A DNA stretch of 64,000 nucleotides from Streptantibioticus rubrisoli (GTDB taxonomy: Bacteria > Actinomycetota > Actinomycetes > Streptomycetales > Streptomycetaceae), in NCBI RefSeq assembly GCF_024436055.1, contig NZ_JANFNH010000002.1, forward strand, positions 62,001 through 126,000, given 5' to 3'. The position numbers and the translations under genes are program-made. How positions within the stretch are numbered: position 1 is the stretch's first letter; each line of letters starts with the position of its first letter. Positions 11,452 through 64,000 of the stretch are shown piece after piece. The notes beneath the pieces were generated by a model that had not been told where the DNA came from, did not search any database, and worked only from the letters and a program-made list of their open reading frames with translations.

Positions 11452-11466
11452 ACGTACATCCTGTTC

Positions 11467-12674: not shown

Positions 12675-12695
12675 GTTCGAACGATGCGCCGTGGG

Positions 12696-13373: not shown

Positions 13374-13416
13374 ACCGACCCCTCGGCGAGTGAGGGCCGC
13401 GCCGGACGCGGCAGGG

Positions 13417-13764
13417 TCAGGACCTCGACGTGTCGGCGCTCTCGTCGCTGTCGGCTGTCTCGTCGAGGTGCTTGAGCGCCGCGCGGGCCGCGATCTGGTC
13501 GGCGCCGAGGGTCGACCAGAAGGGGTGAACGGTCACCGCGTGGGCCAGTTCCCGTTGCCGGGCCCACAGGGCGTCCACCGCCTGCCGCTCCTCCTCGGTC
13601 CAGGCGGGGGTCGCGGGATGTTCGACACCGTCCTCGTCCACGAACGCCTCGGTGCCCGCCGGGCGTGGCGGCAACTGGGCGTGCAGGGCGGTCAGCTCGT
13701 TTCGTACGGCGTGCAGCTCGCGCTGTAGGGAGCGGAGGTCGTCGGGGAAGGGAAAGGAAGGCAC
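13417..13764 (-). CDS. Hypothetical protein, coiled-coil-like
   Basis: A 115-residue protein. Using GTG 13764 it begins MPSFPFPDDLRSLQRELHAVRNELTALHAQL, a helical segment with heptad-like leucines, followed by a Pro-rich loop, TEEERQAVDALWARQRELAHAV and an acidic Ser-rich tail. The longer in-frame start at 13809 would nearly collide with the divergent S4 gene start (4 nt away) and would use the AT-rich stretch 13765-13812 that looks like that gene's promoter. Function unknown. Confidence 0.6.
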   Translation of the reverse strand: MPSFPFPDDLRSLQRELHAVRNELTALHAQLPPRPAGTEAFVDEDGVEHPATPAWTEEERQAVDALWARQRELAHAVTVHPFWSTLGADQIAARAALKHLDETADSDESADTSRS

Positions 13765-48431: not shown

Positions 48432-49807
48432 CCACGTCCTCGCTCGTCGTCTCACACAACCCAGCCGATCCGGCAGACCTCCTGCTGCGCGTCCCGGAGC
48501 CCGGTGCCGCCGCCGTGGCCGATGCCGTCACCAAGGCCCGCGCCGCCCAACCGGGGTGGCTGGCCGGTGGCGCGGGCGCCCGTGCGGCGGCCCTGGCCGC
48601 CATCGCCGAGGCCATCGAGGCCGCGGCAGCCGAGCTGGCCGCACTGGCCGTGCGCGAGGTGGGCAAGCCGCTCACCGAAGCCCGGGCCGAGGTGGCACGT
48701 ACCGCGGCCATCTGGCGGTACTACGCCCAGGCCCCCTACGACCCCACCGGCGCCGTCCACGAACCCTTCGGCGGGTCCGGGCTGTTGCTCACCCGCCGCC
48801 GCCCGCACGGAGTCGCGGGCCTGATCACCCCCTGGAACTTCCCCTTCGCCATCCCCAGTTGGAAGGCGGCCCCGGCACTGGCGGTCGGCAACACGGTGGT
48901 CCTCAAACCCGCGCCCGAGGCCACGGCATGCGCCCTGCGCCTCGCCGAGATCCTCCAACAGACGCTGCCGCGCGCGGTGTTCACCGTGGTTCCCGGCGGC
49001 GCGACCGAAGGCGGCGCCCTGATCGCGTCCTCGGACGCCGTTTCGTTCACCGGGTCCACAGCGGTCGGCAACGAGGTGGTGCGCACCGCGACCGCCCGTA
49101 ACATCCCGGTACAGGCCGAGATGGGCGGGGTCAACGCGGCGATCGTCCTACCCGACGCCGACATCGAACGGGCCGCCGCCCACATCGCCGCCGCGATCGC
49201 CGGATACGCCGGACAGAAGTGCACGGCCACCAGCCGGGTCATCCCGGTCGGCGCCGCCCACGGCCCGCTGCGCGAGGCCCTCGCCGCGGCGCTGGGGGAG
49301 TTGCGCACGGGCGACCCGGCCGACCCGGCCACCGTCTGCGGCCCGCTCATCAGCGAGCAGGCCCGAGAACGCGTCGGCCAGGCATGTCAGGGCCTGGCGG
49401 TACTGGCTGGCGGCACCACCCCCGACCGGCCCGGCTGGTACGCGGCTCCCACCCTGGTCGAGAAGCTGCCACCGGACCACGGACTGCTTCACGAGGAGGT
49501 CTTCGGCCCCGTCGCCGCGCTGCTGCCCGCGGACGACCTGGCCCACGCGGTACGGATGGCCAACTCCGTCCGGTACGGCCTGGTCACCTCGGTGCACACC
49601 GCTGACCTTGACGCGGTTCTGCACGGGCTCGACCATCTCGACACCGGCATGGTCCGCCTCAACGCCCCGTCCACCGGCGTCGACTTCCACCTGCCGTTCG
49701 GCGGCACCAAGGCCTCCAGCCACGGGGCCCGCGAGCAGGGGCGCGCCGCCCTTGACTTCTACACCCGCACCCGCACGTACACCCTGACCCCGGGCGCGGC
49801 CATGTGA
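48428..49807 (+). CDS. hypH: 2-oxoglutarate semialdehyde dehydrogenase
   Basis: A 459-residue aldehyde dehydrogenase from GTG 48428, sharing GTGA with the epimerase stop. Catalytic Cys265 is in GQKCTATSR, the general base Glu231 in AEMGGVNAA and the NAD-site Asn in TPWNFPFAIP. Given its neighbours it is taken as the last step of hydroxyproline breakdown, oxidising 2-oxoglutarate (2,5-dioxovalerate) semialdehyde to 2-oxoglutarate. Substrate is inferred from context; sequence alone fits several semialdehyde dehydrogenases. Confidence 0.87.
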   Translation: MTTSSLVVSHNPADPADLLLRVPEPGAAAVADAVTKARAAQPGWLAGGAGARAAALAAIAEAIEAAAAELAALAVREVGKPLTEARAEVARTAAIWRYYAQAPYDPTGAVHEPFGGSGLLLTRRRPHGVAGLITPWNFPFAIPSWKAAPALAVGNTVVLKPAPEATACALRLAEILQQTLPRAVFTVVPGGATEGGALIASSDAVSFTGSTAVGNEVVRTATARNIPVQAEMGGVNAAIVLPDADIERAAAHIAAAIAGYAGQKCTATSRVIPVGAAHGPLREALAAALGELRTGDPADPATVCGPLISEQARERVGQACQGLAVLAGGTTPDRPGWYAAPTLVEKLPPDHGLLHEEVFGPVAALLPADDLAHAVRMANSVRYGLVTSVHTADLDAVLHGLDHLDTGMVRLNAPSTGVDFHLPFGGTKASSHGAREQGRAALDFYTRTRTYTLTPGAAM

Positions 49808-49846
49808 CACCGTACGCTGAAGTCCGACTCGGAAACGGAGAGCGTC

Positions 49847-50527
49847 ATGGGGCACCTGAAATCGCGCAACCTCATCACCGCCCATGAGCGGTTGCGCGAC
49901 CAGGTCGCCCACGCCCTGCGCGCCGCGCTGATCTCCGGTGAACTCCGCCCCGGCGAGCTGTACTCGGCGCCGGGGCTCGCCGAGGACTTCGGCGTCTCCG
50001 CGACGCCGGTCCGCGAGGCGATGCTCGACCTGGCCCGCGAGGGGCTGGTCGAGCCGGTCCGCAACAAGGGCTTCAGGGTCACCGAGGTCAACGAACGCGA
50101 CCTCGACCAGTACACCGAGATCCGCACCCTGATCGAGGTCCCCACCGTCGGCCGGATAACATGCACCGCGTCCGCCGAGCAACTCCAGGCGCTGCGCCCG
50201 CTCGCCGAGGAGATCGTGAGCGCCGCGCGCCGCCACGACCTCATCGGCTACCTGGAAGCCGACCGCCAGTTCCACCTCGGCCTGCTGGCGCTCGCCGGCA
50301 ACGAACGACTCGTCGAGACCGTGGGCGATCTGCGCAAGCGCTCACGCCTGTACGGGCTGACCGCCCTCAACGAACGCGGCCAACTGCTCCCCTCCGCCGA
50401 GGAACACCTGGAACTGCTGGAGCTGATGCTGGCTGGTGACGCCGAGGGCGCCCAGAAGTGCATGACCCGCCACCTGGGACATGTCCGCTCCCTGTGGGCC
50501 AAGGGCGAGGGTCGGCAAGCCCGGTAG
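49847..50527 (+). CDS. GntR (FadR/FCD) regulator of hydroxyproline catabolism
   Basis: A 226-residue regulator. The winged helix (residues 15-80) has ALRAALISGELRPGELYSAPGLAEDFGVSATPVREAML, followed by GLVEPVRNKGFRV; the FCD ligand domain follows, with Asp/His metal positions in DRQFHLGLL, HLELLELMLAGD and MTRHLGHV. It ends the operon 39 nt after the dehydrogenase and probably binds the GTTATGGA repeats at 43159-43196, released by hydroxyproline or a pathway intermediate. Confidence 0.88.
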   Translation: MGHLKSRNLITAHERLRDQVAHALRAALISGELRPGELYSAPGLAEDFGVSATPVREAMLDLAREGLVEPVRNKGFRVTEVNERDLDQYTEIRTLIEVPTVGRITCTASAEQLQALRPLAEEIVSAARRHDLIGYLEADRQFHLGLLALAGNERLVETVGDLRKRSRLYGLTALNERGQLLPSAEEHLELLELMLAGDAEGAQKCMTRHLGHVRSLWAKGEGRQAR

Positions 50528-50595
50528 CGCGGGACCGGGGGGCGGTCAGGGCGCCCAGCGCGCAGCTGGCCCGGACTCGCGCGGACCAGGGTGAG

Positions 50596-51390
50596 TCAGG
50601 CGGGGCGGCGGCCCCAGCAGGTGATGAGCGGGGCGGTGGTGACGTCCAGTTCCTCGCTGTCGAGGTTGGCCAGGTGCTGGTCGATCTCCGACTCGGTGGC
50701 CAGCCGGTTCCCCACCAGCTGCTCGCGCAGCTGACGTACGGTGGCCGCCTCCAGCTCCCGGCAGTCTGGCGAGGTGACCGGGAAGTACCCTTCCGCTCGA
50801 ACATCGCGCAGCCCGGCACCGCGCAGCAGGGCGGGCAGCGTCCGGCCGAAGGAGAGGTCCACGCCCCGCTGGGCGAGCAGCGTACGGAACCCCCGACGGA
50901 TGCGGTTGGCCAGTTCCTCCACTGGACCGCGCTCGTGCAGGCAGGCCAGCGGCTGCAGCGCCGGGTCGGCGTCCTCCACCACCAGCCAGCCGCCAGGGCG
51001 CACCGCCGCGGCCAACCGCCGCAGCACCTCGGCCCGGGTGGGCAGATGCACCAGCACCAGGCGCGCGTGCACCAGGTCGAAGCCACCGCCCGGCGGTTCC
51101 TCCCGCACCACATCGTGCCGCCGCACCTCGACCGGGGCGGCCAGACCGGTCAGCCAGCAGGTGTCGATGTCCGTCGCCAGCACGAGCCCGGTGGTCCCCA
51201 CCCGTTCGGCGAGGGCGGTGGGCACCGAGGTCCCGCCCGCACCCACCTCCCAGCAGCGCCACCCGGCCGTCAGCCCCACCCGCTCCAGGTGGCCGAGCGT
51301 CCAGGGATCGAAGATCCCGGCGAAGGCATCGAACCGCCGACCGGCCTCACGTTGCCGGTTGTCCAGCAGATACCCGTTTTCTTGCGTCAT
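50596..51390 (-). CDS. Class I SAM-dependent methyltransferase
   Basis: A 264-residue methyltransferase starting MTQENGYLLDNRQREAGRRF at ATG 51390. The SAM motif is CWEVGAGGTSVPTALAERVG, motif II is LVLATDID, and FDLVHARLVLVHLPTRAEVLRRLAAAVRPGGWLVVEDAD is the motif III/post-III region. Substrate unknown; related to small-molecule methyltransferases in secondary metabolism. It lies immediately downstream of the LuxC/LuxE cluster on the same strand, so it could tailor that product, but the overlap chain ends before it. Confidence 0.85.
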   Translation of the reverse strand: MTQENGYLLDNRQREAGRRFDAFAGIFDPWTLGHLERVGLTAGWRCWEVGAGGTSVPTALAERVGTTGLVLATDIDTCWLTGLAAPVEVRRHDVVREEPPGGGFDLVHARLVLVHLPTRAEVLRRLAAAVRPGGWLVVEDADPALQPLACLHERGPVEELANRIRRGFRTLLAQRGVDLSFGRTLPALLRGAGLRDVRAEGYFPVTSPDCRELEAATVRQLREQLVGNRLATESEIDQHLANLDSEELDVTTAPLITCWGRRPA

Positions 51391-54300
51391 GCGGCCATCC
51401 TCGCGCACCGAGGATGCGCGGCCGACCAGGACATACGCTGCCGCGCGCTTACAGCGGCGGCACCTTGGGCAGCGGCCCGCCGCCACTGTCCAAACCGGTG
51501 CCGTCGGTGCGGCCGGTCAACCAGCCGACCAGGGCGTGGGCGGAGCCCGTGACCGTCAGCGGCGGGCCTTCCGGGCGGCCGGTGGGCCAACGCTGGCCGT
51601 CGTCGGTGACTAGGAGCAGGGCGGGCAGCCCGCCGTGCCCGGCGAACTTCACCGTTGCCAGGAAGCGCAGTTCGGCGTGGACGAACTCCGGCGGGAGCTG
51701 GTCGACGGTGTAGCCGACGTCGAGATCCACATGGTGCAGCTCGACCTCGGCCAGGCGGCGCAGCGCCAGCCGCTCCGCCCGTTCCACCACGCCGTTGCGC
51801 ATTTCGACCTGGTAGCCGAAGCGGTCGGGGGGCAGTGCGGCGGCGGCCGCGTCGAAGCGGGCGGCGGTGGCGCGCAGATCGGTCAGGTGCTCGGCCAGCG
51901 GCCGGTCGGCGTCGCGCTCGATGTCGGCCGCGCGTGCGTCGGCGCTGGCGTACATCGGGGTGCGGACGTCCGTACGCGCCCAGTTGAGCAGGTTGACCAG
52001 GGCGTCGGCGTTGCGTGCCAGGTGCGCCAGTACATGGCCGCGGGTCCAGCCGGGCAGCAGGGACGGCTCGCGGGCGGCCGCGTCGTCCAGCTTGCCGACG
52101 GACACGAGCAGGCGCTCGGTCGCCTCGTGGACGGCCGCCGCGCCATGCCGGAAATCGAACGGGGTGCCGGTCATGGGGCAAAGCTAGCGCGGCGGGCCCC
52201 CGCTTGGGGAGAGCACCGCGCAACTCCGCGCACCCGTCCAGGAACGCATCGCGTGCCGCCTGCGCCGACGGGGCGTAACGGCGGTCGAGGCGCAGCGTCA
52301 GGTGCTCACGGTCGGCCCCGCGGTCCAGCACCATCTGCAGCTCACCGCGGTAGGCCAACCGCTCCTCGGCGGTGCGGACGAACTGGCGGTAGTTGTAGAA
52401 GTAGGTGCCCACCCGCACCACATCGCCGTGCCGCCCGAGCAGTTCGACGCGCGGGGTGCGGCTGCCGCAACCGCACTCGCCCGGCACCGTGCGGCCCAGG
52501 TCGCCGATGTCGTACCGCTCAAGGCGCTGCCCCTGCCGCACCCGGCTGGTGAAGACCAGCCGACCGGGCTGCCCGTCCGGCACCGGGCGGTCGGCCTGCG
52601 GGTCGAGCACCTCCAGGATGTGCAGTTCGGTCAGCACATGGTGCACCGAGCCCTCGGCGTACGCGCACTGGTAGCCGAGCGGCCCGAGGTCGGTACTGCC
52701 GTAGGCGGCCGAGCGGATCACCTCTACCCCGAAGTCCGCCTCCAGCGTGCGGCGTTGCTCCGCGGTGAAGTGCTCACCGCCGTAGAACACCTTGCGTATC
52801 CCGCCGTACGGCCGGAGCAGGTCGGCCTGCGAGTGGAACAGCTGCCACAGGTACGACGGCATGCCGAAGACGGTGTTCACCCGGTACTCGATCAGCGCCT
52901 CGGCGATCGCCCGGTGGTCGGACCCCGCGGCGATCGGGATCTGGGTGGCGGTCAACCGCTCCAGGATGGAGAAGAAGCTGATGAAGCTGCCGTACATCCC
53001 ACCGCAGAAGAACAGGTTCGCCGCCCGGTCGTGCCGTGGATCGAACCCGGCGGCCAGCAGGCCGTGCGCACCGGCGCGCATCTGGGTGTCGTAGTCGTCG
53101 TGGGTGAAGACCGACAGCGCGGGCGTCCCCGTGGTGCCGCCGCTGCGGAAGTACAACTGCGCGTCGTCCGGGTCGATGTCGCGCAGCGCGCGCTGTACGC
53201 CCGCCTTGTCCAGCAGCGGTCCGCTCGGCGGCGCGGGCGGGATCACCGGGCGCACCAGGTCGTCCAGGCAGGCCACGTCGGCGAACCGGTCGTCCGCCTG
53301 CACGCTGACCCGGCGGCTGTAGCGCTGCAGCGCGTACACACCGTCGTGCGGTTCGCCGTGGTAGCTGTCCGGCATCGCGCCGACCGGGGTGACCCGCAGG
53401 ACCCCGGCCGCGATGGCGGCCCGGGACAGCACCGCGATGTCGGACCTGCCACCGCCGATCGCCGCGGTCTGCAGATAGCGGCGCATCGGCCGCAGCACGG
53501 AGGTCATCCGGGCGCGCGGCAGCGGCTTGACCCAGATGCTGCGGTGCAGCGGTGAGGCGGTCAACGCGGGCCGGGAGTCGGCCAGTACCCGCCAGGAACC
53601 GTCCTCGGCGGTGATGACCTGGGTCAGCCCCAGATGGCTCTCCAGCCGGGCGACCAGTTCCGTGGTGGTGATCTCGGCCCGGGCGGCCTCGTCGATCCGC
53701 GGCACCGGTCGCTCGGCCGACACCTCGCGGAGCACGGCGGCGAACCGCCGGGCGAAGTCAAAGACCTCCTGCGTGTCGTCGGTGTCGAGGTAGACCACCT
53801 GCGGGCTGGAGCAGGCCTGTTGCTCGAAGCGGCACACGTCCACCGCCAGCGCGGCCAGCGTCCGCGGATCGGCCCACACGTCGCGGGTCAGATAGCCGAA
53901 CGAGATCCTGTGGCCCCATTCGACCAGTCGGCAGCCCGCCGGAACGTGCGCGGCCACCCCCTCGACGGCCGCCTCGCCGCCCCAGACGGCCACCGCGTCC
54001 GCGGCGGCGCAGATGTCCCGCAGCCACTCCTGCCGCGACGACGGGAAGCGCAGCGCGATCAGCCGGGACGCGATGGCGCCGGTCGGGTCGGCGGCGGCCA
54101 GTTCGGCCAGCAGGAGTTGGGCGAGCGCGGTGTCACCGCTGCTGGTCTTGAGCACGTTGACGTTGCCCGCGAGCAGCCCCTCGATCACGCTCAGCGGGGC
54201 CACGCCCGCCGAGTTGCCCGGTGCGATGTGTACCACCAGGCCGACCGGCGCCCACGCCTCGAACACCGTGCTGCGCGCGTCCGGGCGGGTCAGCCGCTCC

Positions 54301-54890
54301 GGCGCGGGACCGCCCAACTCCCGGCGCAGCTTGCGGGTGAGCGCGGTACGGCTGACGGCCTCGGCGATCTCGGTGAGCACCGCGTCCGCCTCCGCGGCGT
54401 CCGTACCGGCGTCGAGCAGTGGCTGGGCCAGCCGGGCGCGTACGCCACGCGCCCGGTCGCGCAGCGCGGTGCTGAGCGCGTCGCAGGCGGCCAGCACGGT
54501 GTCGGTGTCCAACGGCTCGGCCAGCGCCGCCTCCACGACGGCCGGAAGGTCGACAAGTCGCTTGGCGGCTTCGTCGTCGCCGATGAACTCCCCCTGCCAG
54601 AAATGCACGTCGCCGGTCACAGCACCTTCTTGTTCGCTTCTCCGCCCGCGCGGCGTGGGTGCGGGCATCGATGTTTCCTGCGGCCCGGCGGCCGCGCGTG
54701 CGTCGCTCGCAGCGCCTTCTTGTTCGCTCCTCCGCCCGCGCGGCGTGGGTGCGGGCATCGTTGTTTTCTGCGGCCCCGCGGCCGCGCGTGCGTCGCTCGC
54801 AGCGCCTTCTTGTTCGCTTCTCCGCCCGCGCGGCGTGGGTGCGGGCATCGTTGTTTTCTGCGGCCCCGCGGCCGCGCGTGCGTCGCTCAC
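51387..54890 (-). CDS. LuxC-type acyl-CoA reductase fused to a PaaK-like adenylating domain
   Basis: As read, 1167 codons. Residues 1-90 are three 30-residue repeats (SDARAAAGPQ ... RRSEQEGA). Residues 100-520 are a LuxC reductase: VFEAWAPVGLVVHIAPGNSA, GNVNVLKTSSGD, and the acyl-accepting Cys360 in FEQQACSSPQ. Residues about 545-895 are an AMP-binding domain with FRSGGTTGTP at 581-590 and AYGSTDLGPLG. Such a protein could activate an acid and reduce it to an aldehyde. GTG 54890 shares GTGA with the LuxE stop and has AAGGGA; GTG 54620, after the repeats, is an alternative. Beyond residue 896 (C5 at 52197-52201) the sequence is Arg/Pro filler overlapping the isomerase gene; with one C fewer it would stop at TAG 52184-52186. 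Confidence 0.8.
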   Translation of the reverse strand: MSDARAAAGPQKTTMPAPTPRGRRSEQEGAASDARAAAGPQKTTMPAPTPRGRRSEQEGAASDARAAAGPQETSMPAPTPRGRRSEQEGAVTGDVHFWQGEFIGDDEAAKRLVDLPAVVEAALAEPLDTDTVLAACDALSTALRDRARGVRARLAQPLLDAGTDAAEADAVLTEIAEAVSRTALTRKLRRELGGPAPERLTRPDARSTVFEAWAPVGLVVHIAPGNSAGVAPLSVIEGLLAGNVNVLKTSSGDTALAQLLLAELAAADPTGAIASRLIALRFPSSRQEWLRDICAAADAVAVWGGEAAVEGVAAHVPAGCRLVEWGHRISFGYLTRDVWADPRTLAALAVDVCRFEQQACSSPQVVYLDTDDTQEVFDFARRFAAVLREVSAERPVPRIDEAARAEITTTELVARLESHLGLTQVITAEDGSWRVLADSRPALTASPLHRSIWVKPLPRARMTSVLRPMRRYLQTAAIGGGRSDIAVLSRAAIAAGVLRVTPVGAMPDSYHGEPHDGVYALQRYSRRVSVQADDRFADVACLDDLVRPVIPPAPPSGPLLDKAGVQRALRDIDPDDAQLYFRSGGTTGTPALSVFTHDDYDTQMRAGAHGLLAAGFDPRHDRAANLFFCGGMYGSFISFFSILERLTATQIPIAAGSDHRAIAEALIEYRVNTVFGMPSYLWQLFHSQADLLRPYGGIRKVFYGGEHFTAEQRRTLEADFGVEVIRSAAYGSTDLGPLGYQCAYAEGSVHHVLTELHILEVLDPQADRPVPDGQPGRLVFTSRVRQGQRLERYDIGDLGRTVPGECGCGSRTPRVELLGRHGDVVRVGTYFYNYRQFVRTAEERLAYRGELQMVLDRGADREHLTLRLDRRYAPSAQAARDAFLDGCAELRGALPKRGPAALALPHDRHPVRFPAWRGGRPRGDRAPARVRRQAGRRGRPRAVPAARLDPRPCTGAPGTQRRRPGQPAQLGAYGRPHPDVRQRRRTRGRHRARRRPAAGRAPDRSARHRRPLRRGRRRTAPRPLRLPGRNAQRRGGTGGAAGAAPPGRGRAAPCGSRRRLHRRPAPAGVRPRRTALPGNGEVRRARRAARPAPSHRRRPALAHRPPGRPAADGHGLRPRPGRLVDRPHRRHRFGQWRRAAAQGAAAVSARQRMSWSAAHPRCARMAA
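51449..52174 (-). CDS. Maleylpyruvate isomerase family mycothiol-dependent enzyme
   Basis: A 241-residue DinB-superfamily protein starting MTGTPFDFRHGAAAVHEATERL. The N-terminal mycothiol/metal domain has LLPGWTRGHVLAHLARNADAL (His ligand), the next His lies in VELHHVDLDVGY, and a C-terminal SCP2-like piece follows. Relatives isomerise maleylpyruvate with mycothiol; the real substrate here is unknown. The whole gene is overlapped in another frame by the open extension of the LuxC-fusion frame; this frame has the family signature and is the one to trust. Confidence 0.88.
   Translation of the reverse strand: MTGTPFDFRHGAAAVHEATERLLVSVGKLDDAAAREPSLLPGWTRGHVLAHLARNADALVNLLNWARTDVRTPMYASADARAADIERDADRPLAEHLTDLRATAARFDAAAAALPPDRFGYQVEMRNGVVERAERLALRRLAEVELHHVDLDVGYTVDQLPPEFVHAELRFLATVKFAGHGGLPALLLVTDDGQRWPTGRPEGPPLTVTGSAHALVGWLTGRTDGTGLDSGGGPLPKVPPL
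54621..54890 (-). repeat. 90-bp tandem repeat, three copies, in frame
   Basis: Units start at 54621, 54711 and 54801 and are nearly identical; unit 2 and 3 differ at about two positions and unit 1 at a few more. Each equals 30 codons in the frame of the LuxC fusion, and the block ends exactly at the overlap with the LuxE stop. The ribosome-binding-like AGAAGG(T/C)GCTG(T/C)G occurs at the end of each unit but only the last has GTG. Confidence 0.9.
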
Positions 54891-56041
54891 GCCATTCCCT
54901 TCAGCAGTTCCGCCGCCGCGACCGCGCAGCTGCGGTTGCGGCTCAGTCCGGCGCGCCCGTGGATGGTGAACCAGTCGGTGCCCAGCGGGCAGTCGCACGC
55001 CTCGCCGGGCTGGAGCGAGGCCAGGTCGCCCATCACGACGCTGTGCGCCGGAACGGAGGTGATGTACGGGGAGACCAGGTGCAGATATCCGCGCTGGCCG
55101 TACGGCAGTTGCTCCAGCGTCTCCGTGGAGCGCACGGCCGCCCGCGACCACACCGGGACGTGCAGCCGGTGGCGTTTGCACTCCACGTACGGCACGCAGT
55201 GCTCGACGGAACCGTAGGTGTCGCGGATCCGCTCGCCGGGGATGCCCAGTTGGTCGGTGACGGCCGCGTAGAACAGGTCCTTGGGGATCTGCCGGTCGGC
55301 ATGCCCCTTCCAGCCGCCGCCGAGCACCACCAGCGAGTCCTCGGGCAACCGCAGTGCGGGCAGGCCCAGTTCGCGCATCCGCTCCAGCGTGAAGTGCAAG
55401 AACGCGGGAAAGCCCAGGATCCGTACCGGCAGCCCTTCGTCCGCGTAGCGCTGGAGCGCGCCCAGCACACCGAAGACATCGAACTCATGGCCGCGGCCGG
55501 TGTGCTTCAGCGCGTACGTCACCTGCCGGGCGGGCGCGAAGTCACACAGGTAGTTGTCGGTGAACGAGGTGCCAAGGCGCATCTCAGGCGCCGGTTGGTA
55601 GCTGTACAGCAGGTAGTTGACCGGCTGGTCGGGGGTGATCCAGCCGTAGAAGTCGAAGATCCGGGCGACCATGCGCTGTGCCGCGCGGATGGTCCACTCG
55701 TCGAAGAACATCTGCGACTTCTGACCGCTGGTACCGGACGAGGTCAGATGGAGGAACACCTCCTCGCGCGGGATGGACAGCACCTCGTGCAGCTTGAAGA
55801 AGTTGGCGTGCACCAGCGGGGCGAGGTCGCCCGGCGGGGTGTCCGCGAGCAGCGAGCGGAAGAACGGCGAGCGCTCCGCGTGCCAGGCGTTGGCCTCGGC
55901 CATGGCGGTGGCGAACAACTCGTCGGCGTCCGTCGCGTACGGGTCGGCCAGGTCGCACAGCCGCTGTACGTGGGGCAGCGCCGCGGGGTCGGGGACCTCG
56001 ACGGGGGCCAGGTGCGGGTTCGGTGGATTGGCGGGGGTCAT
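54887..56041 (-). CDS. LuxE-like acyl-protein synthetase
   Basis: A 384-residue ANL-superfamily enzyme of the LuxE family. The nucleotide loop SSGTSGQKS is at 101-109, the family motif GGGWKGH at 241-247, and GSVEHCVPYVECKRHRLHVP follows. In luminous bacteria LuxE activates a fatty acid as acyl-AMP and hands it to LuxC for reduction to the aldehyde. Here it shares GTGA with the LuxC-fusion gene and ATGA with the upstream GNAT gene, so the pair probably acts as a fatty- or aryl-acid reductase. Luciferase genes are absent. Confidence 0.9.
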   Translation of the reverse strand: MTPANPPNPHLAPVEVPDPAALPHVQRLCDLADPYATDADELFATAMAEANAWHAERSPFFRSLLADTPPGDLAPLVHANFFKLHEVLSIPREEVFLHLTSSGTSGQKSQMFFDEWTIRAAQRMVARIFDFYGWITPDQPVNYLLYSYQPAPEMRLGTSFTDNYLCDFAPARQVTYALKHTGRGHEFDVFGVLGALQRYADEGLPVRILGFPAFLHFTLERMRELGLPALRLPEDSLVVLGGGWKGHADRQIPKDLFYAAVTDQLGIPGERIRDTYGSVEHCVPYVECKRHRLHVPVWSRAAVRSTETLEQLPYGQRGYLHLVSPYITSVPAHSVVMGDLASLQPGEACDCPLGTDWFTIHGRAGLSRNRSCAVAAAELLKGMA

Positions 56042-57183
56042 GAGACAACCTCGGGAAGGGGCAGATACGTCGAAGTCCAGGCCGTCAGATAGGCCGTGAG
56101 GTACGGCTGGAGCACACCGTCGGCCGTGACGTCGCGGAAGTCGATCTGGCGGCTGGTGCGGGAGAGCACCACATAGTCGTGGAACCGGTCAGCGGCCCGG
56201 CGCATCGCCGGATACACCGCGGCCGGAACGAATCCCTGGGCCAGGAAGGCGGCGAGACCGGCGGTGTCGGCCAGTGGAAGCAGCGCCTCCACATAGTCCG
56301 CACCGGCTCGTGCCACCGCGTCCATCAGCGGTTCCAGCGCGTCGGTGGCCGCGCCGAGGTGCGGATGCACCGCGAGCAGCGCGCAGCTTCCGGCCGCCCG
56401 GTCCAGCTGCGCGTACACCTCGAAGCGGCCGTCACCGGGCAGCAGTACGGCGTTCGGCGTGTGCAGCGGGAAGAACCGGCTGGCCGGGTCGGGGTAGAGC
56501 TCCAGGAACCGGCGCCGTACGAAACCGGGCGCGTCGAGCAGTTCGAAGTCGGCCCCCGAACGCCTGGTTCGACGCGGCGAGTTGGGCTCAGCCGGTGTGA
56601 CGGCCACCGTGCCGAAGCCGATGCCCGTGCTCTCCTCGCAGGCGCGCAGCAGTGGGCACAGCGCCCGCGGCACCTTCGCCACCGGCTCCCGGCGGCTGAG
56701 CACCCCGTCGGCGTAGCGGACGAACAGCGCCAGGCTCTCGCAGCCCTCCACCTCGGCCGCGTTGGGCATCAGGCCGACCGGCTGGAACCCGTTGCGCAGC
56801 ACCACGTTCCGCGGGCCTCGGGTGACCATGCGGACCGTGGCGTACACCGAGTCCACCGCGCCGCCGTCGAACGCCGCCGCGCACACCGATCCGGTCAGCT
56901 GTCCGGCGAGCCCGGCCTGGCGGTGCGCGGGGTGGACGGCGAGGCCGACGAGCTTGCCGACCCGGGTGCCGGGATCGGTCTGGACGACCGCGGAACCGGC
57001 CAGTTCGCCGGTGCCGGTACGGGCGGTGAGCCAGTGGGTGTCCGGGTCGGCGATCAGCCGCCGCATGACCGCCGGGTCGCTGCCGAGGGCGACCGGGTAG
57101 CCGTGCCCGTAGACGTCGAAGTACAGCTGCCGCAGCTCGGCGATGTCGCGCGGTGTCGCCGGGGTGAGCGTCATGGCCGTCAC
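56038..57183 (-). CDS. GNAT family N-acyltransferase, two-domain
   Basis: A 381-residue protein from GTG 57183. The N-terminal half (to residue about 165) is a GNAT fold with VGLAVHPAHRQAGLAGQLTGSV as the acyl-CoA-binding motif. The C-terminal half has a second, degenerate GNAT-like fold (RFEVYAQLDRAAGSCALLAV, LAAFLAQGFVPAAVYPAM). It could acylate an amine made by, or fed to, the cluster. It overlaps the MFS gene (GTGA) and the LuxE gene (ATGA), so it is part of one translational chain. Substrate unknown. Confidence 0.85.
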   Translation of the reverse strand: MTAMTLTPATPRDIAELRQLYFDVYGHGYPVALGSDPAVMRRLIADPDTHWLTARTGTGELAGSAVVQTDPGTRVGKLVGLAVHPAHRQAGLAGQLTGSVCAAAFDGGAVDSVYATVRMVTRGPRNVVLRNGFQPVGLMPNAAEVEGCESLALFVRYADGVLSRREPVAKVPRALCPLLRACEESTGIGFGTVAVTPAEPNSPRRTRRSGADFELLDAPGFVRRRFLELYPDPASRFFPLHTPNAVLLPGDGRFEVYAQLDRAAGSCALLAVHPHLGAATDALEPLMDAVARAGADYVEALLPLADTAGLAAFLAQGFVPAAVYPAMRRAADRFHDYVVLSRTSRQIDFRDVTADGVLQPYLTAYLTAWTSTYLPLPEVVS

Positions 57184-58463
57184 CGTTCACCCGCCAACGC
57201 CATGGCCGCCTCCAACGGCTGGTCGTCCTCGACGGGTTCCCCCTGCTGGCGGCCGCCCAGCAGCCACAGCGCGAGGGCCGCCGGGACCAGTCCGGCCGCC
57301 TGGACCAGGCACAGCGAGCGCGGCGAGAAGTGGTCGCCGAGGAAGCCGAACACCAGCGAGGAGACCGGGAACGTCGCACCGAGCAGGGCCTGCATGGCGG
57401 CGAAGAACACCGGCTTGTCCGCGGTGGGTACCAGCCGCTGGAACAGCGCCACGAAACGCACCCCGACCGCACCCACACACCATCCGGCCACCACCAGTGC
57501 GCCCGCGACCGCGCTCTGGCTCGCGATCGCGCCGGGCAGCCCCAGCGCGGCGGCCATCGCCACCAGGCACACGCCGCCGGTGGTCGCCGGACCGCCGGGC
57601 AGCCGTCGGCCGGTGAACGATCCCACCAACGCGCCGACGCCCAGGACGGATTCGAAGGTGGCGACCGTGCTGCCGTCGGAGTGCAGCACCGAGCGCGTGT
57701 AGAGCGGCATCACCACATAGACGGACGTCGTGAACAGGTTGGCCGCCGTCAGGCACAGCAACACCCAGCGCACCAGCGGGTGTCCGGTGAGCACCTGGCG
57801 CAACGTACGCCGCTCGACGGTGCCTTGCTCCTCGTCCGGCCCCGCCGCCACGGCTCCCGCGAAGCGGGCCAGGCCGAGCAGTGCGGCCGCCGCGAGATAC
57901 GCTCCGGCGCACCCGGCGAGCACCGCGGGGAAGCCCCCGGCGTCCACCACCAGCGGCCCCAGCAGACCGCCCGCGAGCCCGGCGAGCGACTGGGTGGACA
58001 ACTCGAACCCGGTGGCCGCCTCGATGTCCGCGTCGTCCACCAACTCCGGCACCGACGTGGTCAGACACGGGTCGAACAGGGCCTGGCAGGCCGCCAGCAC
58101 CAGCGCCGCCGCGTACGCCACCACCAGCGGCAGCGCGTGCAGCCAGGCCCATGCCGCCACACCCGCCGCGGCCACCCCCGCCACCGCCGCGGAAATCCGC
58201 AGCACCTCCCGGTGCGGGCACCGGGCGATCACCCGGGCCACCAGCGGGGCCAGCGCCACCGCGGGCAGGGTGCTCACCGCCAGGAAGGCGCCGGAGGCCA
58301 GCCCCCGGTCACCGCCGACGGCGTAGCCGACCAGCCACCACACGGCACCGACCTGGAACATCCGGTTCGCCGCCTGGGTGAGCACCTGGGCGGCCCACAC
58401 GGTGCCGAACGCCCGGTTGCGCAGCACCAGGGGCAGTCGCCGGGCGCTTGCCGTCGCCGTCAT
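57180..58463 (-). CDS. MFS transporter
   Basis: A 427-residue major facilitator with about 12 membrane segments, starting MTATASARRLPLVLRNRAFG. The segment RNRAFGTVWAAQVLTQAANRM and the middle loop of about 30 residues (AAGPDEEQGTVERRTLRQVL) suit a drug- or product-efflux MFS protein of the enterobactin exporter-like group. It lies within the overlapping cluster, so export of the cluster's product is the natural inference. Confidence 0.9.
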   Translation of the reverse strand: MTATASARRLPLVLRNRAFGTVWAAQVLTQAANRMFQVGAVWWLVGYAVGGDRGLASGAFLAVSTLPAVALAPLVARVIARCPHREVLRISAAVAGVAAAGVAAWAWLHALPLVVAYAAALVLAACQALFDPCLTTSVPELVDDADIEAATGFELSTQSLAGLAGGLLGPLVVDAGGFPAVLAGCAGAYLAAAALLGLARFAGAVAAGPDEEQGTVERRTLRQVLTGHPLVRWVLLCLTAANLFTTSVYVVMPLYTRSVLHSDGSTVATFESVLGVGALVGSFTGRRLPGGPATTGGVCLVAMAAALGLPGAIASQSAVAGALVVAGWCVGAVGVRFVALFQRLVPTADKPVFFAAMQALLGATFPVSSLVFGFLGDHFSPRSLCLVQAAGLVPAALALWLLGGRQQGEPVEDDQPLEAAMALAGER

Positions 58464-59722
58464 GACCGCGGCCTCTCGTCCAGCACCCGGATCAGCTTGC
58501 CGGAACGGGAGTTGACCGCCAGCTCGCCGATGCGGGCCCACTCGACGACCGGCGGATGGATGTGACCGGCCTGTACCGCCTGGCCGTACAGCGGACGGGC
58601 CGCGAGCAGCTCCTTGACGATCGCGGCGGCCAAATCCTCCAGCCCGGCGGCCTCCTGGTCGTACGCCAGCCGCAGCACCAGCTCGTCGCGGCCGTCCCGG
58701 CGGCGGGCCACCAGCTGCGTGCCGACCACCCGCCCGGCCAGGTCGGCGGCGCTGACGATGTCGTGCACGTCCTGCGTGTAGAGCGACACCGGGCCGATGC
58801 GCACGCCCTCCTCGGAGCGGCCGAGGATCCTGAAGTGCCCCGCGTCGGCGTCCACCCACTCGGCGCGGTCGCCGGCGGGGTAGCGAAGGATCGGCATCAG
58901 GCGCCGCCGCAGATCGGTCACCACGGCCCGGCCCGGTACACCGTTGACGGTGATCGGCTGGCCGGTGTGCTCGTCCAGGATCTCCATCACGGTGTACGGC
59001 GAGAACGGCCGGTGCACCCGGGGGTCGCCGCCGGGCACGGCGGCGCCGAGCAGCCCGGCGTCGACGCTGGCGTAACCGATGGAGCGCGGGAGGGCGTTGG
59101 GAAAGGCGCGCGCCAACAACCGGTGCTGGTCGGAGAAGAGGCTCTCGCCGCCGAAGAACAGCAGTTCCACGTGGTGGAGTTGGCGACCGGCGGCGATCAG
59201 ATGGTCGGCCAGTGAGCACAGGGTGGTCGGCGTACCGGCCACCACGTCGACCTCGAACTCCTCCAGGGTGTGCGCGGTCGACTCCAGCGGCGCCGCGCCG
59301 CCGATGGGCAGCCGGACGTTGTCGACGGGGGAGTGCTGGAGAGAGTCCAGGATGAAGGTGTAACTGGCGTACAGCTCGCCCGCGTAGAACAGGTCGGCGA
59401 CCCGGTGCCCGGGACGCAGCCCGGCCCCGACCAGGTTCTCGCCGAACGCGGTGGTGAATTCTCGCCACTCGTCACGCGTGTAGAAGGAGAATTTCGGCGC
59501 CCCGGTGGTGCCACCGCTTTTGAAGACCACCGCTTCCGTGAGCGCCCCGGTCAACAGGCGATTGCCGCGTGGTGAGTTGGCTCGCCAGAACTCGGCCTGC
59601 GGCACCACCGGCAGGTCCGTCAGCTCGGCCACCCGATCCGGCAGACCGGCGTAGAGCTCGGAGTAGAACGGTGAGTTGTGACGCGCGAAGCGTATGAGTT
59701 CCGTTGTTTGTTGAACGGGCAT
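58460..59722 (-). CDS. PaaK-like AMP-dependent synthetase/ligase
   Basis: A 420-residue adenylate-forming enzyme and first gene of the cluster, from ATG 59722 with AGGA upstream. The P-loop is VVFKSGGTTGAPKFSFYT (residues about 68-85), with IGYASVDAGLLGAAVPGG and LRYPAGDRAEWVD further on. It resembles phenylacetate-CoA ligases rather than NRPS adenylation domains, and carries no carrier protein. It probably activates a carboxylic acid, either for the GNAT step or for reduction by LuxE/LuxC. Confidence 0.88.
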   Translation of the reverse strand: MPVQQTTELIRFARHNSPFYSELYAGLPDRVAELTDLPVVPQAEFWRANSPRGNRLLTGALTEAVVFKSGGTTGAPKFSFYTRDEWREFTTAFGENLVGAGLRPGHRVADLFYAGELYASYTFILDSLQHSPVDNVRLPIGGAAPLESTAHTLEEFEVDVVAGTPTTLCSLADHLIAAGRQLHHVELLFFGGESLFSDQHRLLARAFPNALPRSIGYASVDAGLLGAAVPGGDPRVHRPFSPYTVMEILDEHTGQPITVNGVPGRAVVTDLRRRLMPILRYPAGDRAEWVDADAGHFRILGRSEEGVRIGPVSLYTQDVHDIVSAADLAGRVVGTQLVARRRDGRDELVLRLAYDQEAAGLEDLAAAIVKELLAARPLYGQAVQAGHIHPPVVEWARIGELAVNSRSGKLIRVLDERPRS

Positions 59723-60169
59723 CGATTCCTGCTTTGTGGCATGCGAAGGAGAGTGACCTCACATGGTTGAGAGATCACTTGACGGATTGCGGTGCCGCCG
59801 TACGGGCCGCCTCACACCGGTGGCAGCGGTCCGTCTCCCGTGTTTCGGGAGTATTTCCGGCGGGTGGGGAGCACGCTAGCTGTAGCCGAGGTGACCCCGG
59901 CAGGCGAGCAGGCGATTTCCAGCCGGTCGGAGCTGGAAGGAATGCGCCAGGTAAAAGGTTGAATTCTGGCCAACTCGCGGTACGCGCGGGCCGTTTGATG
60001 TCCCCACAGTGCAATAACGGTACCACCCCTTCCGGTCCCATTCCGCACTGCGGCCGTGGGCTGCGGGTATACCGCTGTCCCGGAACCGTGGTATGAGCGG
60101 GGCCTGCCGGAAAGCCCTCCGGCCCGCCCCGAATGAACGGGACGGGCCGGAGGGGGACGGGCAGTTGGA
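59723..60169. other. 447-nt region carrying the cluster promoter and glucoamylase terminator
   Basis: No gene is supported. The leftward promoter of the LuxC/LuxE cluster should lie between 59740 and 60000; I could not fix a -35/-10. CTCCCG-TGTTT-CGGGAG (59835-59851) is a small hairpin that would be in its leader. The AT-richer stretch 59930-59980 may hold the promoter. Confidence 0.45.
60115..60154 (-). terminator. Glucoamylase terminator
   Basis: CCCTCCGGCCCG (60115-60126) and CGGGCCGGAGGG (60143-60154) form a perfect 12-bp stem 16 nt after the glucoamylase stop; on the minus strand it is followed by CTTTCC. Confidence 0.8.
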
Positions 60170-62701
60170 TCAGCGCCAGGTGTCGTTCAGCGTGACCGAT
60201 GATCCCGAAGCGCCGGTCGTGTACGAGCGGTTGGGATCGCTTTCCCAGGTGACGCTGCCGTCCGGGTTCTTCTTGATGTACTTGTACTGGACAGTGGTGT
60301 TCGCCGGAAGCGGGACCGTGCCGCTCCACACCGGATAGGACGCCGAGGACAGCGCCACCGACTTGGCCGGGTCCCAGGAGCCCAGCGCCGGAACGGAGCC
60401 CACGACGAACACGTTCTGGCCCCAGTACGTGGTGGCGTTCTCGTCGAAGGTGACCGAGACCTGGTTCGGCGGGCCGCCGCCCGCGTACCGCTGGGCCACG
60501 ACCGCCGGGGTGTCCACCGTCTTGCCCGCCGAGATGTCGACGGCCAGCCGCACGTACTGCGCCATGGTCCACATCAGCGGGGTCGCGGAGTTGTCCGGCT
60601 GCCCCTGGGTGAAGCCGTCCGCGCTGGCACCGGGCCAGATCTGCTCGGAGATCTGGTAGCCGGTGTTGGCCGCGTTGGCCATCGAGCCCAACATGGCCTG
60701 GGCGCCCGCCAGATCACCGGTCTGCACGTCGTACTCGCCGCGCTCCCCGCTGAGCACCGGCCACGGCCGCCCGAGGCCCGCGCCCGTGTAGTCGCCACCG
60801 GACGAGGTCTCCCCGTAGCCGTCGTGGTTGTAGCGGCCCCAGTAGGTGCCGTAGCCGGGGACGGCCGTCTTGATAGTGGCGTCGACGGCCGCCAGCGAGT
60901 TGGTGATCTGCTGCGACGACGCGGGCTTCACCCCGAGCCGGGACAACTCCAGGAAGCCCTGGTCGACGACGGCCCGTTCGTCGTAGGTGCCACCGTTGTT
61001 GGAGATGGTGACGGTGTCGCCGTTGTTGGGATTGCCGTTCGGGGTGATCCGTACGTAGTACGAGCCACCGGCGATCGAGCCCGTGGTGGTGTACGTGTCG
61101 GAGTCCACCGCTGTCTGGAAGGCGTCGGCCTTGGCCAGATAGGTGGCCGCGTCCGAGGAGTCCCCGTTGGCGGTGGCTAGCTGCGCGGCACACACCAGAC
61201 CGGCCACCTCGGCGGCCATCGTGGACGGGGAGTAGCCGCCGTTCTCCTCCCACCGCTCCTGGCCGGTGGCCGGGCCGTTGCTGACGAGGTAGTCGGCGAG
61301 CAGCTTCACCTTGGACCACGTGGCGGCGTCGGTCCTGCCCAACTGGTAGGCGAGCACGATGGGGAAGGCGACCTGGTCCTCCTGGACCCCGCCCCACTCC
61401 TGGGTGCCGTCCAGCCAGCTGTTCTGCTTCACATAACCGCTGGACGTCTCTTCGTAGTTGAGGACGTAGCTCAGCGCGTCGTTGGCGTCGGCGGTGTCAC
61501 CGGCCGCCAGCAGGGCGGTGGCCATCTGGTACTCGTCGCGGGTCCACACCAGGTGGTAGCCGTGCGCCCCCGCGCTGTTGGCGCTCACGCTCCCGCCCCA
61601 CGGGGTGAGCGGCGCCGCGACGAAGCCGCCGACGTGGGTCTTGTCCTCGTCCGCCTTCACCTCCATCAGCGAGACCTCGTACTGCTGCTTGAGCTTGGTG
61701 TCCGAAGCCACCGACGCGGGCGGTGCGTTGAGGCCGCCGAGCCAGTTGTGCCAGCCGGACCGAAAGCCGCTCTCGGCCGTGTCGAAGCCCGCGCCCAGCG
61801 AGGCGGAGGCGTCGCTGACCGCCGCACCGGTGCTGGTGTCGAAGGCCAGGGCGAGGGTGAAGGTGGTGCTGCCGCTGGCGGCCACCGGGATCTGGGCGGT
61901 CTGCGCGATGTGTCCCGCGGTCGGCGCGCTCTGCCCCGGTGTGGTGAGTTGGTGACTGGCGGTCAGCTCGCTGGCGCCGTCGCTGGTGGTGCCCGCGTAG
62001 CCGGTGGAGGACGCGGTGAAACCGGTGGACGACGCCAGCGCGCTCGCCACCGAGCCGTTCGCCGCCGTCAGATCACCACTGGTGTCGGTGGACCCCGTGT
62101 TGCCCATGCCCTCGTTGCCCAGCGCCGGGTTGTACTGCGCGTACAGCGACAACGGGCTGCTGGAGAGGTTCTGGAACGTGGTGCGCACCAGGACGACCGA
62201 ACGGTCCGGGTCGGCGACATACGTCTTTGTGATCTTGTACTTGCCGTTGGTCGCGGTGTTGGTCTGTTGCCACTCCAATGACGTGGGATCGACGAGCGAG
62301 ACCGCGTGGCTGGTGTTCGCCACCTCGTTGTCGGTGAACGACGAGCCGTCCGTGACGTAGTACTGGAGCCCGAAGGTGTCCGGGGTGTCGGGCTGCGGAT
62401 AGAACACGTTCTGCAACTCGCCGTCGCCGATGGTGTACCAGATCTTCGACTGGGCGGACAGCGCGTTGGCGAAGCCCTGCACGTGCGGCTCGTTCCAGTA
62501 CGCGTTCGCACCGGGTGCGCCGGGCGCCGGTGCGGCGACCGCGCTGCCCGCGGAACCGGCGAGCACGGCGGCGGCCAGCGTGACCGCGGCGGTGAGCAGT
62601 GACGTTCTGCGCGGCAGCGGGGCGCTACGCGGCCGGGACGGTGATCTGCCGGGTGGTCTGGTGGGCTGGCGGGGTGGCCGCTTGCTCGACTTGTCGAACA
62701 T
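60170..62701 (-). CDS. Secreted GH15 glucoamylase with C-terminal CBM20
   Basis: An 843-residue exo-enzyme releasing glucose from starch or related alpha-glucans. A basic, Pro-rich N-terminus with PLPRRTSLLTAAVTLAAAVL could be a Tat-type signal ending in AVAAPAPG. A glucodextranase-like beta-sandwich (about 65-330) precedes the (alpha/alpha)6 barrel (about 340-730) with HLVWTRDEYQMATALLAAGD, the general acid Glu in EWGGVQEDQVAF and the base in LSGERGEYDV. Residues about 748-843 are a CBM20 starch-binding domain (VFVVGSVPALGSWDPAKSV, YKYIKKNPDGSVTWESDPN). ATG 62701 lacks a good ribosome-binding site. Confidence 0.93.
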   Translation of the reverse strand: MFDKSSKRPPRQPTRPPGRSPSRPRSAPLPRRTSLLTAAVTLAAAVLAGSAGSAVAAPAPGAPGANAYWNEPHVQGFANALSAQSKIWYTIGDGELQNVFYPQPDTPDTFGLQYYVTDGSSFTDNEVANTSHAVSLVDPTSLEWQQTNTATNGKYKITKTYVADPDRSVVLVRTTFQNLSSSPLSLYAQYNPALGNEGMGNTGSTDTSGDLTAANGSVASALASSTGFTASSTGYAGTTSDGASELTASHQLTTPGQSAPTAGHIAQTAQIPVAASGSTTFTLALAFDTSTGAAVSDASASLGAGFDTAESGFRSGWHNWLGGLNAPPASVASDTKLKQQYEVSLMEVKADEDKTHVGGFVAAPLTPWGGSVSANSAGAHGYHLVWTRDEYQMATALLAAGDTADANDALSYVLNYEETSSGYVKQNSWLDGTQEWGGVQEDQVAFPIVLAYQLGRTDAATWSKVKLLADYLVSNGPATGQERWEENGGYSPSTMAAEVAGLVCAAQLATANGDSSDAATYLAKADAFQTAVDSDTYTTTGSIAGGSYYVRITPNGNPNNGDTVTISNNGGTYDERAVVDQGFLELSRLGVKPASSQQITNSLAAVDATIKTAVPGYGTYWGRYNHDGYGETSSGGDYTGAGLGRPWPVLSGERGEYDVQTGDLAGAQAMLGSMANAANTGYQISEQIWPGASADGFTQGQPDNSATPLMWTMAQYVRLAVDISAGKTVDTPAVVAQRYAGGGPPNQVSVTFDENATTYWGQNVFVVGSVPALGSWDPAKSVALSSASYPVWSGTVPLPANTTVQYKYIKKNPDGSVTWESDPNRSYTTGASGSSVTLNDTWR

Positions 62702-62970
62702 ATCGCTGCACTTATGCCTTTCGGTCGCCAGGGGTGGGGGACCTCGCACGACGTCAAACGTGATCGAGGCGCCGCAGGGCGCGCCACCGCCCCAAGGGTG
62801 CTGGAACGGGCGCTGTGTGAGCCTCCTTCGACGACGCGTACCTGTCAAGATTTCAAACAGTGGTCGTCTGGGCGCGGTTGCGGTGTTCAAGCGGTGAAGA
62901 CGGCGTCGGTCGTCACCGAAGTGGCGGCCTCCCGGGTGCGGGGCGGCAGGGTGCCACTTAGTGTGACGGC
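62702..62970. promoter_or_regulatory. Divergent promoter region, glucoamylase and peptidase
   Basis: On the minus strand TTGACA (plus 62846-62851, TGTCAA) is a perfect -35 for the glucoamylase, about 17-18 nt before a GGCTCA-type -10. Next to it TTTGAAATCTTGACA has an AT-rich half-site pattern of the kind used by carbohydrate regulators. The rightward peptidase has no clear ribosome-binding site. Confidence 0.45.
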
Positions 62971-64000
62971 ATGGGTCCCGTCCGGTCACGATCACCGCTG
63001 TCCGGCATGCTGGCACGGCGCGGACCGGGCGGCGTCTGGATCATCGTGCTGGCCGTGCTCGCCGTGGTGGCGCTGGTGCTCGCCGCGCTCGCGTACGCGG
63101 CCACCCTGCCGTACGCGCCGTACGACCCGCCCTCCGACTCCCGCGACCCCCGGCCCGACCTGCGCCGCTACTACCAGCAGACACTCAGCTGGACGCACTG
63201 CGGCCGACACGGGGTGAGCGGCGGCGTGCGAACGCCTGCCGCCGTCTCCGCCATGCGGTGCGCCCGGCTGAAGGTGCCGCTGGACTACTCCGCCCCGGCC
63301 AAGGGCACCCTCACGCTCGCGGTGAGCCGCTTCGGGGCCAGCGGCGGACGGCACCGGCTGGGCTCGCTGGTGTTCGGCTTCGGCGGCCCCGGCGGATCGG
63401 GTGTGGACCAACTCGCCGCTCACATCGGCGGTTTGGCCCGGCTGCGGCAGTCGTACGACCTCATCGGCCTGGACCCGCGCGGCTGGGGCCGCAGCCACCC
63501 GCTCACCTGCACTGACCCGCGAGGCGCGGCCCCCGTCGCGGCATCGGCCGACACGGCCGCGCCGGGCGACGCCGACCCGGTGGACGACGCGGCGGTGCAA
63601 CTGCGCACCGAAGCACAGCAGTACGCGGATCACGCCCGCGACTGCGCGCGGCTGTCCGGTCCGATGCTGCCCTACGTCGGAACCACCAACATCGCCCGCG
63701 ACCTGGACGTGCTGCGGCAGGCCCTGGGCGACCGCAAGCTCAACTACTTCGGAACGTCCTACGGTTCGCAACTCGGCGCCGTCTACGCCCACCAGTTCCC
63801 GCACCACACCGGCCGCTTCGTGCTCGACGGCATCGTCGACCCCACCTCGGACACCAAGCGGACGGCGCTCGCCAGGGCCAACGAGGACGAACGCGGCATC
63901 CGTGACTTCCTCACCGACTGCCTGCGGCGACACGGTGCCGAGTGCCCCTTCCACGGCACGGTGGACACCGCCGAGGCCCGGCTGCGCCGCGCTTACGACG
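62971..64000 (+). CDS. Secreted alpha/beta hydrolase, SlpD/E-type tripeptidyl aminopeptidase, cut by window edge
   Basis: The first 343 codons are present; the C-terminus lies outside. A membrane anchor or signal occupies residues 22-46. The pattern FGFGGPGGSGVDQLA (oxyanion region), DLIGLDPRGWGRSHPLTC and the nucleophile Ser263 in FGTSYGSQLG are those of the S33 family mycelium-associated peptidases of Streptomyces (SlpD/SlpE, tripeptidyl aminopeptidase). The Asp and His of the triad and the TAP-like C-terminal domain would be beyond the edge. Confidence 0.88.
   Translation, partial: MGPVRSRSPLSGMLARRGPGGVWIIVLAVLAVVALVLAALAYAATLPYAPYDPPSDSRDPRPDLRRYYQQTLSWTHCGRHGVSGGVRTPAAVSAMRCARLKVPLDYSAPAKGTLTLAVSRFGASGGRHRLGSLVFGFGGPGGSGVDQLAAHIGGLARLRQSYDLIGLDPRGWGRSHPLTCTDPRGAAPVAASADTAAPGDADPVDDAAVQLRTEAQQYADHARDCARLSGPMLPYVGTTNIARDLDVLRQALGDRKLNYFGTSYGSQLGAVYAHQFPHHTGRFVLDGIVDPTSDTKRTALARANEDERGIRDFLTDCLRRHGAECPFHGTVDTAEARLRRAYD

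Follow-up and report, generated by a model that had tools for sequence, protein, structure and literature searches.

Five leftward genes occupy positions 51387-59722 of the 64-kb stretch of DNA analysed here (the window), and Pfam and NCBIfam searches across it bore out the domains that an earlier note had named for them. From right to left, all on the minus strand, these are a PaaK-like AMP-forming ligase (58460-59722; NCBIfam PaaK-type models, below their cut-offs), an MFS transporter (57180-58463; PF07690, E 9e-21), a GNAT acyltransferase (56038-57183; PF00583, E 1e-8), a LuxE acyl-protein synthetase (54887-56041; PF04443, E 2.8e-23), and a fusion of a LuxC reductase to a second PaaK-like ligase, whose homologous part spans 52213-54620 (PF05893, E 1.4e-85; PF00501, E 1.6e-14). 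Condensation, carrier and reductase-domain NRPS signatures were absent from all five genes in the Pfam/NCBIfam domain search. The reading as a small-molecule cluster free of NRPS and PKS holds; a LuxD-type gene is likewise absent among the five. At each joint the start codon overlaps the preceding stop by 4 nt, in frame, through ATGA or GTGA (TTGA in a few relatives), as had been noticed before. Across the loci compared below, such an overlap is found at the GNAT/LuxE and LuxE/fusion joints in 41 of 41, at the MFS/GNAT joint in 26 of 26, and at the ligase/MFS joint in 25 of 26, each count recording that an in-frame start is available at the joint, since the gene caller chose a later start in some loci.

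Flanking gene families are seldom common among the Streptomycetaceae loci fetched. A GH15 glucodextranase gene (60170-63016) stands upstream of the five genes and was dropped as a pathway member, having relatives only in two same-genus loci. The methyltransferase said to lie just downstream is real, but an MDMPI-type gene (51449-52174) intervenes between it and the fusion gene, and a relative of the MDMPI gene is found in just 1 of 40 other loci, the same-genus locus L033. Both genes are therefore probably outside the module; with relatives only in L033, they too were dropped from the pathway.

The open reading frame of the fusion (51387-55181) cannot be taken as a single clean gene. For its first ~97 codons it runs within luxE, and for a further 90 it crosses a 90-bp repeat in three tandem copies (54620-54890, minus strand), which separate luxE from the fusion gene. 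Because this repeat stands between genes elsewhere, once as frame-breaking 89-bp units, the GTG at 54620 is the likely start, and on the same evidence the GTGA overlap between luxE and the fusion frame in the window is probably accidental. At the other end, the frame leaves homology after about 52213-52219. Relative to L033, 223 bp are missing, with a 7-bp microhomology at the junction (52213-52219). Past the junction the reading continues across the MDMPI-type gene in the wrong frame, a tail (51387-52212, minus strand) that is not homologous coding sequence, and the deletion leaves the window gene without its C-terminal ~40 codons. The fusion that the earlier note described is thus real, but the first part of its frame belongs to luxE and the repeat, and its end is truncated out of frame.

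The loss is peculiar to the window. None of 42 other LuxC-ligase sequences (from 40 Streptomycetaceae loci, Klebsiella and Salmonella) lacks the C-terminal end. The Gly-Lys pair lost with it is invariant in those 42, and a [S/T]GK motif near the end of the fusion occurs in all 40 other Streptomycetaceae loci. Of 162 columns invariant among the 42 other sequences the window keeps 158, its four departures all being gaps within the lost end. Among the 12 sequences that depart most, those other than the window show 0 to 11 departures (Salmonella 11, Klebsiella 6, L069 4), all of them substitutions apart from a single gap in L033, at its called start. The 223-bp deletion could be an assembly error.

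The earlier note knew of no described pathway with this gene set, and took a match to a characterised cluster of known product as what would overturn its reading. The leupeptin locus leupABCD, reportedly described by Li et al. in 2020 (doi 10.1002/anie.202005506) from Klebsiella michiganensis, Xenorhabdus and Photorhabdus, is such a match and supersedes that statement. Primers for leupA and leupB of the leupeptin cluster have been published with a 1,235-bp amplicon (PMC8283571). The leupA_f primer gave an exact match in one genome of the GTDB collection, K. michiganensis DSM 25444, and leupB_r matched exactly at 3904, giving the published 1,235-bp product. The gene order there is MFS, LuxE (leupA), LuxC-ligase fusion (leupB), PaaK-like ligase (leupC) and GNAT (leupD), the letters A-D being assigned to the Klebsiella genes by primer position and order. 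The letters of the leupA primer had suggested an ATP-grasp ligase, mistakenly, since the primer sits within luxE in a different reading frame.

The window proteins match their counterparts to graded extents. LuxE is 57% identical to LeupA over 373 aa, the fusion 41% to LeupB over 729 aa, and the stand-alone ligase 38% to LeupC over 416 aa. The GNAT protein is 28% identical to its counterpart LeupD over 122 aa at a BLAST E of 0.001, a value that refers to a set of some twenty proteins. Its matches to the GNAT proteins of Salmonella (E 2e-4) and of L091 (1.5e-5) are weak as well. The relation to LeupD is clear only by profile: HHalign gave a probability of 96.5% over 143 columns for the GNAT domains of the window and LeupD, a comparison that covers the GNAT domain only. 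An MFS-type transporter is adjacent in both loci; between the two transporters there was no sequence match by BLAST, and profile comparison gave 0.3%. For scale, Klebsiella and another Enterobacterales quartet share 65, 51, 49 and 41% identity in LuxE, fusion, ligase and GNAT. Searched against the genome of the window, Klebsiella LeupC had its best hit in the window ligase (275 bits), followed by a paralogue on contig C16 (258 bits).

The two loci have in common LuxE, the LuxC-ligase fusion, the PaaK-like ligase, a protein of the GNAT type, an adjacent MFS gene and the lack of any NRPS, Klebsiella being the member of the leup group whose sequences were compared. They differ in order (ligase-MFS-GNAT-LuxE-fusion in the window, MFS-LuxE-fusion-ligase-GNAT in Klebsiella), in the distant GNAT protein (381 aa against 305 aa), in their unmatched transporters, in a lysine-to-alanine change in the P-loop of the window fusion, and in the truncation of the window copy. 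Judged by homology, the five genes are very probably a leupeptin-type cluster of a Streptomyces relative. Identities of 38-57% leave the choice of amino acids unfixed.

To see how widely the set occurs, 297 Streptomycetaceae genomes were searched with the fusion protein, and 66 gave matches. By identity alone, 41 of the 297 carry a lineage A (67-100%) and 20 a lineage B (56-60%; genome G190 has a match split in two, with 54% in one part), while 8 of the 66 matching genomes have a PaaK-like match only. The two lineages occur together in three genomes, those of the window and its two same-genus relatives. For lineage A, 20-kb surroundings were fetched at 25 of the 40 places besides the window, and for lineage B at 15 of 20. 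The gene order is conserved in other genomes: all 26 lineage-A loci, the window included, have ligase-MFS-GNAT-LuxE-fusion on one strand in that order, with the MFS gene in the same place in every one and the ligase of L042 called as a fragment only. GNAT-LuxE-fusion is found in 15 of 15 lineage-B loci, so that GNAT is present in all 41. The lineage-B ligase lies next, on either strand, with one or more gene calls intervening in L063 and L064, and a relative of the window MFS was found in none of these 15 loci.

The ligase half of the fusion also separates the lineages. Its SGGxxGxPK motif has alanine for lysine in 26 of 26 lineage-A fusions, and the lysine is kept in the 15 lineage-B and 2 enterobacterial fusions. 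Since the substituted residue is the P-loop lysine, the lineage-A ligase half may work differently. In a LuxE tree the enterobacterial genes fell outside A and B, support for A plus B was modest (84/56), and long outgroup branches were flagged. The tree did not settle how A, B and the enterobacterial genes branch from one another, and lineage A is therefore not demonstrably the closer leup orthologue.

In the genome of the window, lineage B is represented by a second, full-length leup-type set on contig C16 (L053, G000:C16:497001-517000, genes at 5610-11788), with GNAT, LuxE, LuxC-ligase and a convergent ligase, and without an MFS gene. A PAS/GAF/SpoIIE-domain gene (2703-5126) stands upstream of this set.

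At E 1e-40, LuxE was found in 3 of 396 sampled genomes of the phylum, two of them Streptomycetaceae. Among 394 Enterobacterales genomes, LuxE of the leup kind was found in three, one of them Klebsiella, and the whole homologous quartet in 2 of the 393 other sampled Enterobacterales genomes. LuxE matches turned up in 38 plasmid records; leaving Streptomycetaceae aside, the closest were on two Salmonella plasmids (53.5%). One of them, Salmonella enterica plasmid CP054717.1 (L074), carries LuxE, LuxC-ligase, PaaK-ligase and GNAT at 7995-13753, a quartet homologous to leup. This plasmid was typed as conjugative, and a Tn3-family transposase lies within the same 17-kb stretch. On the second Salmonella plasmid (L075), GNAT is not annotated beside the leup-type genes.

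The cysteine aligned with Cys360 of luxE and that aligned with Cys288 of LuxC are each conserved, in 44 of 44 LuxE and 44 of 44 LuxC sequences; in the lux enzymes these two residues are the acyl-transfer cysteines. Leupeptin is described as made first as a peptide acid, which a 'leupeptin acid reductase' then reduces with NADH and ATP (PMC7714073). An adenylating LuxE working with LuxC fits such an enzyme. In Xenorhabdus bovienii, according to one account, the amide bonds of leupeptin are made by separate AMP-dependent ligases, and a reductase takes part as well (PMC11212599).

By homology, a pathway may be proposed in which GNAT would use acetyl-CoA to make N-acetyl-leucine, the stand-alone ligase would adenylate Ac-Leu and join leucine, and the ligase half of the fusion would adenylate Ac-Leu-Leu and join arginine. 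LuxE would then adenylate the finished peptide acid and bind it to its C-terminal cysteine as a thioester; the LuxC half would take the acyl group onto its own cysteine and, with NAD(P)H as reductant, convert it to the aldehyde, which the MFS protein would export. No LuxD-type thioesterase would be needed, because the substrate is a free acid. The number of adenylating modules, three (the ligase, the ligase half of the fusion and LuxE), equals that of the ATP-requiring steps, a pair of amide bonds plus the reduction, and which ligase forms which bond is a guess. As the fusion gene of the window lacks the end of its ligase half, the arginine-joining step may fail in this strain unless the intact C16 cluster covers it. 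About half of the earlier chemical outline holds up: activation of an acid and its reduction to an aldehyde by LuxE and LuxC, action of GNAT on an amine, and the presence of an exporter. The suggestion that GNAT attaches a second, ligase-activated acid fares less well; by analogy with leup, it is more likely that GNAT acetylates leucine with acetyl-CoA and that the two ligases form peptide bonds.

A phenotype can be set beside the genes in one strain. Streptantibioticus (Streptomyces) cattleyicolor NRRL 8057, which is DSM 46488, carries all five genes at full length on its megaplasmid (L103, identical to part of L069), with 73, 67, 64, 77 and 69% identity to the window ligase, MFS, GNAT, LuxE and fusion, and its fusion keeps the GK end. 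LC-MS networking annotated the leupeptin family in S. cattleya DSM 46488 (PMC12235219). The molecules named for this strain are acetylleucylleucine, Ac-hLeu-hLeu-Arg-al and arglecin, which arises by degradation of leupeptin. For two Streptomyces strains jointly, the paper also names LVR, lysinal and propionyl analogues, the other leupeptin-positive strain being S. griseochromogenes (DSM 40499). Leupeptins are also reported from another isolate called S. cattleya (PMC5511137). Free Ac-Leu-Leu is what stepwise ligation predicts, and it could also be a breakdown product. The link between cluster and leupeptins is a correlation in one strain, S. cattleya DSM 46488.

The leupeptins of S. cattleya could in principle have another source, because its genome has NRPSs; we counted 31 condensation-domain places, 29 of them over the cut-off. 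Thioester-reductase matches over the TIGR01746 cut-off numbered zero in this genome, in a search whose set of genomes contained no positive control with a known NRPS reductase domain. Eight weaker matches were found, none in a frame longer than 644 aa, the two best being a protein with NAD_binding_4 and DUF6230 and a stand-alone NAD_binding_4 protein. Such weak matches also occurred in 14 of 14 control genomes. An NRPS source is weakened by this lack of an NRPS-sized thioester-reductase frame.

We consider it highly probable that the five genes form an NRPS-free cluster of the leup type for an acyl-peptide aldehyde of the leupeptin family, most likely Ac-Leu-Leu-argininal. Three other readings were weighed. 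The same chemistry might build a different N-acylated di- or tripeptide aldehyde, one of other residues for instance, and not leupeptin itself; this is suggested by the identities between window and Klebsiella (57, 41, 38 and 28%) falling below those between Klebsiella and the Enterobacterales quartet, by the P-loop change in lineage A, and by the two lineages in three genomes, which suggest two products. We hold it unlikely, in view of the report of leupeptin-family molecules from S. cattleya DSM 46488, where the lineage-A cluster is intact (PMC12235219). Very improbable is a LuxCE-type reductase cluster for fatty or aryl acids, yielding a lipid or aryl aldehyde. Although LuxC and LuxE are matched by Pfam, the NCBIfam long-chain models gave 71.4 bits for LuxC and 66 for LuxE against cut-offs of 750 and 550, LuxD is absent among the five genes, and the nearest characterised relatives found, LeupA and LeupB, come with the same enzyme set. 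Precedents for aryl-acid reduction are GriC/GriD and EhpF/EhpG. Readings modelled on these pairs or on luxCDE were dropped on the low LuxC and LuxE scores and the leup match.

The third reading is compatible with a leup identity of the family and concerns only this strain: the window copy would be a decaying remnant that makes nothing, and only the C16 paralogue would work. We regard it as a serious possibility, although somewhat doubtful. The 223-bp deletion takes away ~40 C-terminal codons, including a Gly-Lys pair that 42 other fusion sequences hold invariant, and joins the frame to the next gene out of frame; yet the remaining 158 of 162 invariant columns are kept, the other four genes have lengths seen in relatives, and the deletion could have arisen in assembly. 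Under the leup reading that we prefer, the window cluster is a streptomycete member of the leup kind whose fusion gene is truncated in this strain.

Leupeptin is a common laboratory protease inhibitor. It was first reported from actinomycetes in 1969 (a reference cited in PMC11212599). A 2023 paper still places Streptomyces leupeptin among NRPS products (PMC10548850), and the Streptomyces enzyme that reduces the peptide acid is said in one article to be not commercially available (PMC7714073). A link of these genes in Streptomyces to leupeptin was not found in the open-licence literature searched, and the 2020 paper of Li et al. may already mention actinomycete homologues. Opinion could go either way on the broader reading, in which the classical leupeptins of Streptomyces would generally come from the leup module and not from an NRPS, LuxE and LuxC would be the long-known 'leupeptin acid reductase' that has had no gene, and lineage B would make another family of peptide aldehydes, as yet undescribed, in ~7% of the Streptomycetaceae sampled (20 of 297). 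What the comparison provides is a candidate gene for each leupeptin step in Streptomycetaceae, its frequency in 297 genomes, and a second lineage marked out. A mining approach built on NRPS cores would probably overlook both lineages.

Several known systems resemble the window in part. The luxCDE system shares a LuxE acyl-protein synthetase and a LuxC reductase with conserved aligned cysteines; the window differs in lacking LuxD and luciferase, in the fusion of LuxC to a ligase, and in scores far below the equivalog cut-offs. The antipain, flavopeptin and livipeptin clusters also make protease inhibitors that are C-terminal peptide aldehydes, but by NRPSs, or proteins resembling them, that carry a reductase domain (PMC10548850); the window has free-standing ligases with LuxE and LuxC. 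Streptomyces europaeiscabiei plasmid NZ_CP109155.1 (L076) has a LuxE 50% and a LuxC 46% identical to those of the window; there LuxC is unfused, and GNAT and a second ligase are not annotated in the 17-kb stretch. At 2061-10519 of L076, LuxE-LuxC directly follows genes for an MBL-fold protein, a short ORF and a DUF692 protein, and the opposite strand carries a YcaO gene. This looks like a RiPP locus, in which the end of the RiPP could be reduced to an aldehyde. An overlapping LuxE-LuxC pair lies at 7824-10225 of the Chloroflexota plasmid CP069395.1 (L078), with luciferase not annotated in the 17-kb stretch. On the linear plasmid of Streptomyces sp. NBC_00158 (L077), three genes annotated as peptidase inhibitor family I36 (11470-12837) lie one gene from a leup-type cluster.

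The three repeat copies between luxE and the fusion gene are outside the pathway. They belong to a dispersed, GC-rich element of ~85-90 bp that stands mostly between co-directional genes (window, L095-L102, L104-L123). One copy is present in the same-genus locus L033, and none was found in L034. Folding of five copies as RNA was no better than that of shuffles (z -1.2 to +1.3), and Rfam at gathering thresholds gave no match in 49000-64000. With genes around the repeats called by a simple GC-frame script, the stop codon of the gene upstream coincides exactly with bases 2-4 of the repeat (TGA) in 16 of 28 loci, or 17 of 29 when the window is counted, and the next gene begins within 300 nt in 26 of 28, always on the strand of the repeat. 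The element occurs at at least seven other places in the genome of the window, at one of which (L095) its 89-bp units are unable to keep a frame. It was found in 7 of 21 genomes searched, that of the window included, and one of these, from another genus, has 18 matches.
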